NCBI GenBank assembly: GCA_964017045.1
Contig: OZ024808.1
Span: forward strand, 27,121,995-27,185,994
DNA: 64,000 nucleotides
From: Omphiscola glabra
Lineage: Eukaryota; Mollusca; Gastropoda; Lymnaeidae
Direction of reading: 5' to 3'
A program made the position numbers and the translations under genes. How positions within the stretch are numbered: position 1 is the first letter of the stretch; each line of letters opens with the position of its first letter. The notes under the pieces were generated by a model. It ran no database searches and was not told where the DNA came from. It was given only the letters and a program-made list of their open reading frames with translations. Positions 23,567-57,484 of the stretch are shown piece by piece.

Positions 23567-23612
23567 ATGTTTAAACACATCATATCCTTGTGTTTGGCTG
23601 CCATATTTTGTG
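23567..23612 (+). CDS. X-A exon 1 (signal peptide)
   Basis: ATG to donor G|GTGAGT, 46 bp, phase 1 exit. The paralogous exon at 55,454 differs at 5 of 46 bases, so the signal peptide is much better kept than the mature protein. Confidence 0.82.
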
Positions 23613-26600
23613 GTGAGTGTAAACTAAGCCACGTTGTCTAGAGGGTAGCTCCCCTTCGCTATAGCTACAGACAAGTTTAAGAGTAAAAAAAACTCCTGTC
23701 CTCTGCAGGAGCTGTTGTGTTCTAATTCTTCTAGCTCCTAAAGAGCCGATGTGTTGTAATTCTGCTAGCTCATAAAGAGCCGATGTGTTGAATGAAAAAA
23801 AAACAAAAAGCAGTGGAAAAGTTCATCAAAATATATTTAATTGTTTTTGATGCATATGTGTTGAAAATTACCAGAAACCACAAAATATGTATATCCACAT
23901 TAAAAATTCACTTCTACTCCAAAAAAAAAAAAACGAAAAAAACCACCCTTTATTCGACTCGACTCGTCAATGTCTCGCTCAACACTCAGATCCCCTAATT
24001 TTTCACCCACTCCTCCTCACGTGGTTTTCTTTCCCGACACACCAAGACGGTCATACATGACATATCAAGACTGTAATACACGACACACCAAGACGGTCAT
24101 ACACGACACACCAAGACGGTCATACATGACACACCAAGACGGTCATACATAACACACCAAGACAGTCATACATGACACACCAAGACAGTCAAACACGACA
24201 CACCAAGACGGTCATACATGACACGCCAAGACAGTCAAACACGACACACAAAGACGGTCATACACGACTGAGAAAAGTCGTGGGGTTTACATGAAATCCC
24301 ACGAGCGCTCTCTTTACTTCATCAAAACATACAAAGAAAAAATAGTCACACGATTTGACCGTGACAGTGAGCTAATATGTTTAAACACATCCTAGCTTTT
24401 TCTTTTCCTGCCATATTTTGTGGTTAGTGTAGATGTTTAAACACTTCCTAGCCTTGCCTTTGCTGCTATATTTTGTGGTGAGTTAATCTGTTTAAACACA
24501 TCCTAGCCTTGTTTTTGCTGCTATATTTTGTGGTGAATTAATCTGTTTAAACACATCCTAGCCTTGTTTTTGCTGCTATATTTTGTGGTGAGTTAATCTG
24601 TTTAAACACATCCTAGCCTTGTTTTTTGCTGCCTCATTTTGTGGTGAGTTAATCTGTTTAAACACATCCTAGCCTTGTTTTTTGATGCCTCATTTTGTGG
24701 CTAGTTTAATATTTTTTATTATTTCGCAGAGATTGCATGTTGATAGTCTTAATTCGTTTTGAAGACTATGATAGACCAAGCAAAGAACGTTTACATACAA
24801 ATATGTTTTAGTCAAATACATTTTAGTCAAATATGTTTTAAGTTAAATACGTTTAAGTGATACATGCATTTAGTGAAAAATGTTTGTAGGCAATTATGTC
24901 TAGCTAAACGTTGTATAAAATACCAATATATTTAAATATTGAAACTAATTGACGGTTGCGTATCTTGATTAAATGCTACCCACGGGTTTAAATCCTAAAA
25001 GAGTGCAGTTTAACAAATCCAAAAAAAATTGTTTATAAAATGTTAGATTGTGTTATAAACTGAAAAAAGTACCACATACAAATATTTTCATAAAATAACA
25101 AAGTGGGTATTTCTAAATATTTGAAAATTATTATATTATCTGTTAACTTAAAGCGTTCAAATTTATTAATGGGTTAAATTGTGTTGCATTGGTTTGTGGA
25201 TATTCAAAGTATCCGAATGTAACAAAGTGGTGCTGAAATATATAATCAGGAATCGACCCATTCTGAATTTGTGTGTTTGTTTCATTTCATAGAATGCAGC
25301 CACGTCGTTAATGATAACTGCATAGAGTTGAAAGCATGTTCATTCAATATGTCAGAAACAAGAGATTCAGACTTATGTGCAAGCCTTTCTAATGAGACGA
25401 TTTACGACCTTTTCTGTCAGTGAGTAAAAAGTTGATTATGAAAAGTCTTTTGGCAGAGAGTGAAGATGCGATTATAAAAATTTTCTGTCATTTATTTAAG
25501 ACTCGATTATAAAAGTTTTCTCTCAGTTAGTAAATGAAGTTTAAAGAACGTATTTTATTCTGTCGTCATTGATTTAAGAGTCGATTATAAAAGTATTCTC
25601 TCAGTTAGTAAATGTAGTTTAAAGAACGTATTTTATTCTGTCATTGATTTAAGAGTCGATTATAAAAGTATTTTCTCAGTTAGTTAATGTAGTTTAAAGA
25701 ATGTATTTTTAAGTTCGTAAAACGAGACTTTTTACAGTCTGGCATCGAAGTCAAAACAATTGTTGTCCTAAATGTTGCGGTATTCAATCTCAGAGTAAGC
25801 TTTTAATACATGTTAGGTCGGTAAAGTGTTTTTTAAATGTTAATGTTATTCGAAATTCATTTTACTTACGTTTAAGAAATTGTCCAGACTATGATGGGAA
25901 AACCGTTCAGCATGTAATAAGTTGATGTAAAATGTATATATGTGCCCCAAGGAGGACAAACTTAAAATGATATCTCTTTTATTTATTTTTTATTATAGAA
26001 CGTACGACAGCCAATCATTTAGTGTAGAATAAACTACGACTATTTATTTATTTTAGTATAAACTACGACCAATCATTTATTGTAGCATAAACTACGACCA
26101 ATACAGTTTATAATTTATAGTAATCATTCATCATCAGTGGCACTACAGCCAATGTATGGCCCTGGCCTGCTCCACAAATCCTTCCATTCAGACATCACCA
26201 TCAGTGGCACAACAGCCCATGTAGGGCCCTGGCCTGCTCCACAAATCCTTCCATTCAGACATCACCATCAGTGGCACAACAGCCCATGTAGGGCCCTGGC
26301 CTGCTCCACAAATCCTTCCATTCAGACATCATCCTCTGTGGCGCTACAGCCAATGCATGGCCTTGGCCTGCTCCACAAATCCTTCCATTCAGACATCACC
26401 ATCAGTTGCACTACAGCCCATGTAGGGCCCTGGCCTGCTCCACAAATCCTTCCATTCAGACATCACCAACAGTGGCACAACAGCCCATGTAGGGCCCTGG
26501 CCTGCTCCACAAATCCTTCCATTCAGACATCACCATCAGTGGCACAACAGCCCATGTAGGGCCCTGGCCTGCTCCACAAATCCTTCCATTCAGACATCAA

Positions 26601-55499: not shown

Positions 55500-55675
55500 G
55501 TAAGTGTAGATGTTTAAACACATCCTAGTCTTGTCTTTTGCTTCCATATTTTGTGGTCAGTTTAGATTTTTAAACACTTCCTAGCCTTGTCTTTTGTTGC
55601 CATATTTTGTGAAGAGTTAATATGTTTAAACACATCTTAGCCATGTCTTTTGCTGCCATATTTTTTTTCTAGTTT
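55454..55675 (+). repeat. Tandem array of signal-peptide exon copies, unit B
   Basis: Four units (55,454, 55,510, 55,567, 55,622), about 56 bp each. The first two keep ATG, length and a usable donor (GTAAGT, GTCAGT). The third has lost ATG and donor; the fourth keeps ATG but its donor has become TTTTTTCTAG. Confidence 0.88.
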
Positions 55676-57484
55676 AATATTATTTTTATTTTCGCAGTGA
55701 TTGTGTGTTGATTGTCTAAACTCGTTTTGTAGACCTTGATAGACCATGGAACGAAAGTTTACAAATACGTTTTAGTCAAATACATTTTTAACAAAAATGT
55801 TTTAAGTTAAATTTGTTTTAAGTCAAATATGTTTTAAGTCAAATATGTTTTAAGTCAAATATGTTTTAACTCAAATATGTTTTAAGTCAAATATGTTTTA
55901 AGTTAAATATGCATTAAGTAAAAAATGTTTGTAGTCAATTATGTCTAGCTAAACGTTGTAGAAAATACAAATATATTTAAATATTGAACACAGTTAACGG
56001 TTGCTTATCTTGATTAACTGCTACCCGGGAGCTTAAATCCTAAAAGAGCGCCGTTTAACAAACCCAAATAAATTGTTTACAAAATGTTAGATAGTGTTAT
56101 AAACTGAAAAAAAGTACCACATACAAATATTTTCATAAATTAACATAGTGGGTATTTCTAGATATTTGAAAATTATTATCATATAACTTAAAGCTTTCAA
56201 ATTCATTAATGAGATTAATTGTTTTGCATTGGTTTGTGGATTTTCAAAGTATCCGAATGTAACAAGATGTTGGTGTAATATATAATCACGAATTGACCCA
56301 TTCTGAATTTCTGTGTTTGTTTCAATTCAAAGAATGCTACCACATCACTGACCCAACGTGCAGTGAGCTGGGGGCATGTTCATTCCCTCTGGCAGAAACA
56401 AGTGATACAGGGCCATCTTCTAGCATTTTTAATCAGACGATTTACAACCTCTTCTGTCAGTGAGTAAAAAGTTGATTATGAAAATTCTTGGGGCAGGGAG
56501 TGAAGATGCGATTTAAAAAATATTCAGTCATTAATTTAAGAGTCGATTATAAAAGTGGTTTCTCATTTAGTAAATGTAGCTTAAAGAACTAATTTTATTC
56601 TGTCATTGATATAAGAGTCATCATAAAAGTATTTCTCTCATTTAGTAAATGTAGCTTAAAGAACTAATTTTATTCTGTCAATGATTTATGAGTCATCATA
56701 AAAGTATTCTATCAGTTAGTAAATGTAGTTTAAAGAACGTATTTTTAAGTTCATAATATGAGACTTTTGACTGTCTGTCATCGAAGTCAAATTATTGTTG
56801 TCCTAAATTTTGAGGTCTTCAACCTCAGAGTAAGCTATTTATACCTGTTGGGTCCGGTAAAGTGTTTTTTAAATGTTAATGTTATTCGAAATTTGTTTTA
56901 CTTACGTTTAAGAAATTGTCCAGACTATGATGGGAAAACCGTTCAGCATAAAATAAGTTGACGTAAAATGTTTATATGTGCCCCAAGGAGGACAAACTTA
57001 AAATGATATCTCTTTTATTTATTTTTTATTGTAGCACGTACAACGGCCAATCATTTATTGTATAATAAACTACGACTATTTATTTATTTTAGTATAAACT
57101 ACGACCAATCATTTATTGTAGCATAAACTACGACAACACAATTTATAATTTATAGTAATCATTCATCATCAGTTGCACAACAGCCAATGTAGGGCCCTGG
57201 CCTGCTCCACAAATCCTTCCATTCAGACATCACCATTAGAGGCACAACAGCCAATGTAGGGCTATGGTCTACTCCACAACATCATTTTATTCGGATTGAT
57301 CCATGACTTTCCGCCATCATTTATTGTAACACAGAAAAATATTTTCTTCTTTACAGACAATTCCAGACATTTAAAACATGTTTTAATAACAGCGAGTCCC
57401 GGTGTGGCAATATGTATGTATTTTTGAACAAAGAGGGAATATTTGAAACAGCCCATTACATCTGTTCAAATAGAGGCAGAGTGG
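55454..57484 (+). CDS. Gene X-B: paralogue of X-A (exons 1-3 in window)
   Basis: Exons 55,454-55,499 (46 bp), 56,333-56,459 (127 bp) and 57,357-57,484 (128 bp) have exactly the X-A exon lengths and phases and intact splice sites (G|GTAAGT; TTCAAAG...GTGAGT; TTTACAG...G|GTAGGT). The signal peptide is MFKHILALSFAAIFC. About half of the exon 2 residues differ from X-A, but LFCQ, the TFKTCFN.S.SRCG stretch and AH.IC are kept; one exon 2 cysteine of X-A is absent. Exons 4 and 5 would lie beyond 64,000 if the order is kept, since the GATA array that precedes exon 4 in X-A ends at about 63,205 here. Function unknown; likely secreted. Confidence 0.78.
55760..55920. repeat. 15-16-bp A/T-rich repeat in X-B intron 1
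   Basis: Repeats of TTTTAAGTCAAATATG, about ten units; unit A has a shorter version at 24,800-24,880. Confidence 0.85.
56333..56459 (+). CDS. X-B exon 2
   Basis: 127 bp, fully open, entry phase 1 and exit phase 2. Reads CYHITDPTCSELGACSF then, further on, NQTIYNLFCQ. Confidence 0.82.
57357..57484 (+). CDS. X-B exon 3
   Basis: 128 bp, fully open, reading FQTFKTCFNNSESRCG then ETAHYIC. Several changes form multi-base clusters (for example the codons after RCGN), all in frame without indels. Confidence 0.82.

Follow-up and report, generated by a model that had tools for sequence, protein, structure and literature searches.

Exons of two duplicated, putatively secreted-protein genes of the gastropod Omphiscola glabra diverge two to three times faster than their introns

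Introduction

Why should two copies of a gene differ more in their exons than in the introns between them? The question is raised by a stretch of 64,000 nucleotides from Omphiscola glabra (assembly GCA_964017045.1, contig OZ024808.1, positions 27,121,995 to 27,185,994 of the forward strand), here called the window and numbered from its first base. Two genes in it, X-A and X-B, both lie inside a duplication in direct orientation, about 20 kb long, that pairs 9.9-29.3 kb with 43.7-64.0 kb and is much larger than the genes. A first-pass annotation had proposed that their exons diverge two to three times faster than their introns, in the manner of an arms-race family. The explanation that we favour, and hold to be reasonably probable as a whole, is that X-A and X-B are paralogues derived from this duplication, that they belong to a gastropod family of secreted two-domain proteins, and that diversifying selection has acted on them as recognition-type proteins.

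Divergence of exons and non-coding DNA

X-A and X-B were aligned with MAFFT. Exon 1 (46 bases; 23,567-23,612 in X-A, 55,454-55,499 in X-B) differs at 5/46 positions, exon 2 (127 bases; 25,293-25,419 and 56,333-56,459) at 36/127 (28.3%) and exon 3 (128 bases; 26,724-26,851 and 57,357-57,484) at 26/128 (20.3%). The three exons are on the plus strand and align without insertions or deletions, and the counts are exactly those that had been obtained by hand. In the non-coding DNA, the 5' flank differs at 68/701 positions (9.7%), the part of intron 1 that follows its repeat array at 48/437 (11.0%), intron 2 at 87/896 (9.7%) and the DNA downstream of exon 3 at 72/574 (12.5%), or 108/1048 (10.3%) over a longer stretch. 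The 5' flank, this part of intron 1, intron 2 before its tandem array (80/818) and the 72/574 downstream were pooled into a reference that leaves out the tandem arrays and a tetranucleotide repeat, giving 268/2530 or 10.6%. Exons 2 and 3 are both above this reference (Fisher p 7e-8 and 1e-3); the mature exons diverge at two to three times the rate of the surrounding non-coding DNA, as the first-pass annotation had stated.

The excess is confined to the exons. The 60 bases on either side of exons 2 and 3 contain 7, 6, 6 and 8 differences, which is the intron level, and among 917 gap-free spans of 127 columns the maximum of 38 differences was found in one overlapping exon 2, compared with 18 for the highest span touching neither exon. 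When the track of differences was shifted circularly, 16 of 3382 shifts reached the observed 62/255, all of them by 11 columns or fewer, and shifts of at least 130 columns gave a maximum of 51 and a mean of 27. Exon 1, with the signal peptide, has changed at the intron level, not below it. The exon 2 peptides are 50% identical, so that about half of their residues have changed, while exon lengths, internal AG/GT splice borders and most cysteines are kept in both copies, all of which agrees with the earlier description.

Gene structure and a relative in Lymnaea stagnalis

The first gene model was correct for exons 1-3 but incomplete, with only three of six X-A exons. As read from the sequence, X-A has six exons (23,567-36,583, plus strand) encoding a predicted signal peptide, two related six-cysteine domains and a short tail. 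A profile search with X-A and X-B (461 candidates, 5.8 billion sequences) gave one protein at E<=10, P0121 of Lymnaea stagnalis (233 aa; against X-A E 6e-45, 42% identity, 100% of the query covered), and this is the further member that the first-pass annotation had suggested looking for in related species. With X-A only, none of 228 candidates in the protein search reached E<=10. P0121 confirms exons 1-5 of X-A and revealed exon 6.

The signal peptide of exon 1, which would direct the protein out of the cell, reads MFKHIISLCLAAIFC in X-A (donor GTGAGT, 9/15 identical to P0121) and MFKHILALSFAAIFC in X-B (donor GTAAGT, 13/15 identical). Exons 2 and 3 encode the first and second halves of domain 1. 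Exon 4 (29,491-29,653, 163 bases) has AG/GTAAGT borders and the required phase, encodes the first half of domain 2 and matches P0121 residues 111-165. Exon 5 (35,986-36,134, 149 bases) encodes the second half; it is similar to exon 3 and has the same entry phase. An in-frame TAA at 36,119-36,121 lies past its last domain cysteine, 13 bases short of the exon 5 donor, which means that X-A as read is 199 residues long and without the tail. The coding part of exon 6 (36,525-36,583), with an AG acceptor in phase, lies behind this stop and reads RRFVKDISAFLCGYKSLNH. The corresponding exons 4-6 of X-B would fall beyond the right end of the window, since base 64,000 aligns with 29,330, short of the exon 4 start of X-A at 29,491. 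Two other assignments were rejected: the exon 5 reading frame as a separate third paralogue, since exon 4, the phases and P0121 all assign it to X-A, and a small secreted peptide gene on the minus strand at about 36,640-36,380, which runs antisense to X-A exon 6 and matches no Pfam family.

Domain 2 (exons 4 and 5) resembles domain 1 (exons 2 and 3) more than all 2000 shuffles (z 6.9 for X-A and 8.7 for X-B), which indicates an internal duplication of the protein. Two exons in matching phases encode each domain, whose six cysteines are invariant over five aligned domains, with C-x8-C-x7-C or C-x8-C-x8-C at the centre, a core that is probably helical. The tail is basic and preceded by a run of basic residues. 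In P0121, 14 of 16 tail residues match X-A 36,527-36,574, and the identity of the tail to exon 6 (15/19) is higher than that of exons 2-5 (77/184; p 0.003, noticed after the fact). Its charge is +6 in P0121, where the helical moment exceeds that of most shuffles (p 0.031), and +3 in X-A (p 0.063 for the moment). That the conserved tail is released as a peptide is a guess from 19 residues, and in X-A the stop precedes it.

The family looks undescribed, with no Pfam model at the cut-off and one relative in the protein search. For X-A and X-B no Pfam family reaches the cut-off, and for X-B two families appear at chance level. P0121 residues 58-84 match positions 21-47 of the RGM N-terminal domain (PF06535) with E 3.2e-4 and 21.3 bits, where the cut-off is 24.2, and the match recurs in one of five domain sequences scanned alone; we take it as a lead on the fold and not as membership. 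Modelled from its single sequence, P0121 is all-helical, but the model is of poor quality (mean pLDDT, predicted local distance difference test, 50). The structure search with this model found no known structure and its listed matches carry no weight; RGM structures are absent from the lists, which is uninformative either way. Sequence searches of the PDB gave either nothing or weak, senseless matches, one of them to PCNA with E 0.0065 and no stretch passing alone. In the titles and abstract starts of open-licence papers found by text search, none by sequence, the X/P0121 family is not described, and passages of PMC10875847 contain nothing on it.

Intron 1 carries tandem units of 55-56 bases derived from exon 1 with its donor (24,377-24,710 in X-A, 55,510-55,673 in X-B); not counting exon 1 itself, there are six units in X-A and three in X-B. 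They can be seen as an amplification of the signal exon or as an exon-seeded minisatellite. A bank of alternative signal exons was rejected, as by eye two of the nine units (24,377 and 55,510) keep ATG, frame and GT donor. Intron 2 of X-A has a 67-base tandem repeat (26,061-26,711), where X-B is without 402 bases, six units' worth.

Two variable segments in a conserved scaffold

The differences are not evenly spread within the exons. Of the 62 differences in exons 2 and 3, 55 fall into two segments (55/162 bases, about a third): bases 6-102 of exon 2 (25,298-25,394 in X-A, 34/97) and bases 57-121 of exon 3 (26,780-26,844, 21/65), while the remainder of both exons has 7/93. The segments were defined after looking at the data; a scan for a cold stretch gave p 0.0026, or 0.012 with codons kept whole. 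The 30 core codons, including the FCQQF-TFKTCF stretch, have 8/90 differences and are as alike as the introns. Seven of eight mature cysteines are kept between X-A and X-B (P 0.028), no stop has arisen (P 0.093 among 62 random substitutions), and the 255 bases are free of indels (P ~0.08). The residue has changed at 35 positions: X-A agrees with P0121 at 10 of them and X-B at 5, and the other 20 carry a different residue in each of the three proteins, which implies that both copies have moved.

It is reasonably probable that, after the duplication, selection favoured amino-acid change in these two segments of domain 1, which may be exposed at the surface of the protein, with the cysteine scaffold, the core and the splice sites kept in the meantime. 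The likeliest job for such a protein would be to recognise, outside the cell, an ever-changing partner such as a pathogen, a mate or prey; the sequence does not tell defence from reproduction or feeding.

Diversifying selection is supported by the rate of nonsynonymous change, 49.75/193 sites in the mature part, which is far above the 10.6% of non-coding DNA (p 1e-8), and in the two segments even more so (p 5e-13, with the segments picked after looking). The N-glycosylation motifs, up to five in X-A and two in the X-B part, can also be counted in favour. By counting, the mature part has a nonsynonymous rate (dN) of 0.30-0.33, a synonymous rate (dS) of 0.21-0.27 and a ratio w of 1.1-1.5 (transition weights 1 to 3). 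Several observations weigh against this explanation. Synonymous sites have also changed, 12.25/61.7, about twice the 10.6% of non-coding DNA (p 0.034), and nonsynonymous change is not in significant excess over synonymous change (p 0.21). By maximum likelihood (ML), w is 1.26 for the mature part (p 0.57) and 1.68 for the variable segments (p 0.29), neither distinguishable from 1; for the core codons it is 0.67 (p 0.62 against 1). The amino-acid changes, 35, are fewer than the 40.6 expected from 62 random substitutions (P 0.037), the reading frame of X-A is interrupted by a stop close to the 3' end where P0121 reads through, P0121 is without any N-glycosylation motif, and the comparison rests on one pair, two copies known from their sequence. 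The arms-race pattern of the first-pass annotation is upheld in the fast mature exons and in nonsynonymous change above the non-coding level, but not in dN/dS, which was proposed as the check alongside intron divergence and cannot be separated from 1.

The kept cysteines, the kept frame, the missing stops and the low number of amino-acid changes, taken together, suggest that constraint on the scaffold and accelerated change elsewhere operate side by side. Since synonymous change is itself above the intron level, selection on amino acids may be only part of the story.

Alternative explanations

An explanation in which synonymous and nonsynonymous sites rise together is that the segments were exchanged, as short conversion tracts from an older, unseen paralogue, or locally hypermutated. 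We regard it as rather unlikely, but it is a live rival because the synonymous sites rise too, with 0.237 within the segments compared with 0.106 (p 0.031). The clustering of the differences in two segments, given above, also fits it, and so does the number of codons with multiple hits (17, against an expectation of 12.6; p 0.035), although such codons account for part of the synonymous excess. It has parallels in other systems: passages on conotoxins report both Dn and Ds raised in mature exons (PMC3862624), and those on three-finger toxins report segment switching with introns more than 85% alike (PMC2711939). Against an exchange, no donor segment was found among the tblastn matches listed for the exon peptides in the window, and the edges of the segments lie inside the exons and never extend into the introns.

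A related possibility joins this process with selection. The signal exon and the basic C-terminal peptide would be fixed ends flanking two domains that are rewritten segment by segment, a variable recognition module in an undescribed gastropod family, with local exchange or hypermutation contributing to the rewriting as well as selection. We find this combination distinctly unlikely, and the stop of X-A before the conserved tail weighs against such a precursor.

It is very improbable that the copies are older than their introns suggest, with gene conversion keeping the introns alike and the exons escaping. The exon synonymous divergence, about twice that of the introns, would agree with it, but eight stretches across the duplication, flanks included, differ by 5.5-14.4%, like the introns with 9.7-11.0%, the introns carry indels and repeat-copy changes of their own, and the exon core (8/90) is as similar between the copies as the introns are.

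Decay of X-A, or of both copies, into relics with drifting exons is likewise very improbable. The stop in exon 5, which the Lymnaea protein does not share, would agree with it, but drift would raise exons to the neutral level and not two to three times above it, the stop follows the last domain cysteine 13 bases before the last junction, and the exon 6 sequence downstream of it has kept 14/16 identity to Lymnaea. A stop that near the last junction escapes nonsense-mediated decay under the usual 50-base rule.

Other repeats in the window

Elements of about 4 kb are found at 12,171-16,437 (plus) and 58,084-62,076 (minus), and a related 3' end at 29,352 (plus) lies at the end of intron 3 of X-A. 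Their two ends read TC and CTAG, and they are inserted between A and T; where intron 3 of X-B carries such an element, the other copy has an empty site. We take these to be the marks of Helitrons. Two elements of the long terminal repeat (LTR) type lie in opposite orientation at 4,017-8,965 and 30,198-35,654, with 342-base terminal repeats that are 98.8% and 96.8% identical. The second sits in intron 4 of X-A and contains a non-LTR reverse transcriptase reading frame (32,875-34,188). Named relatives of the retroelements among the 120 matches listed are from Littorina saxatilis and Pinctada imbricata; the retroelements mark the host as a mollusc, and P0121 makes a pulmonate snail probable. A repeat of 32-34 bases forms long arrays at 1-4,016 and 8,965-9,947, interrupted by the first LTR element. 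No features were found in the Rfam and tRNA scans.

Comparison with known systems

P0121, the one relative that the protein search gave, matches X-A over the full length with two six-cysteine domains, signal peptide and tail; it differs in seven extra residues before the first domain cysteine, in having no N-glycosylation motif and in reading through at the place of the X-A stop. It is also the one protein with any likeness to RGM, a sub-threshold N-terminal match with no other RGM part. Membership in RGM_N (PF06535) was rejected, as P0121 stays below the cut-off and X-A and X-B do not match at all.

CRASP of Achatina achatina, as described in passages of PMC4596865, is likewise an orphan pulmonate secreted glycoprotein, all-alpha and cysteine-rich, with one C-x8-C pair. 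Its published spacing, C-9-C-6-C-28-C and C-11-C-8-C-10-C, sets it apart from X-A and P0121, neither of which has the ten-cysteine pattern, and on this spacing membership was rejected.

The pattern of fast exons and slow introns is already known from conotoxins and snake toxins; it is the family that looks new. Conotoxins, going by the passages of PMC3862624, are gastropod proteins with a conserved signal exon, conserved introns and a fast, cysteine-rich mature exon in which Dn and Ds are both raised, but their genes have two or three exons with a short mature peptide in the last, whereas X-A has six exons that code for two domains of about 90 residues. With this structure, and without a Pfam match, X-A was rejected as a member of the conotoxin superfamilies. 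In the three-finger toxins (ASSET), to judge from passages of PMC2711939, segments are likewise replaced within exons while cysteines are kept and introns stay alike; these toxins have another fold, come from other animals and have segments that differ in length and kind, whereas X is without indels. The same passages leave open whether selection or mutation and exchange drives the fast exons, for conotoxins (PMC3862624) and for snake toxins (PMC2711939) alike. X-A and X-B offer a clean natural contrast in neighbouring genes, with about 10% difference in introns and flanks and about a third of the bases in two coding segments, and together with orthologues the pair would test selection alone against selection with added local mutation or exchange.

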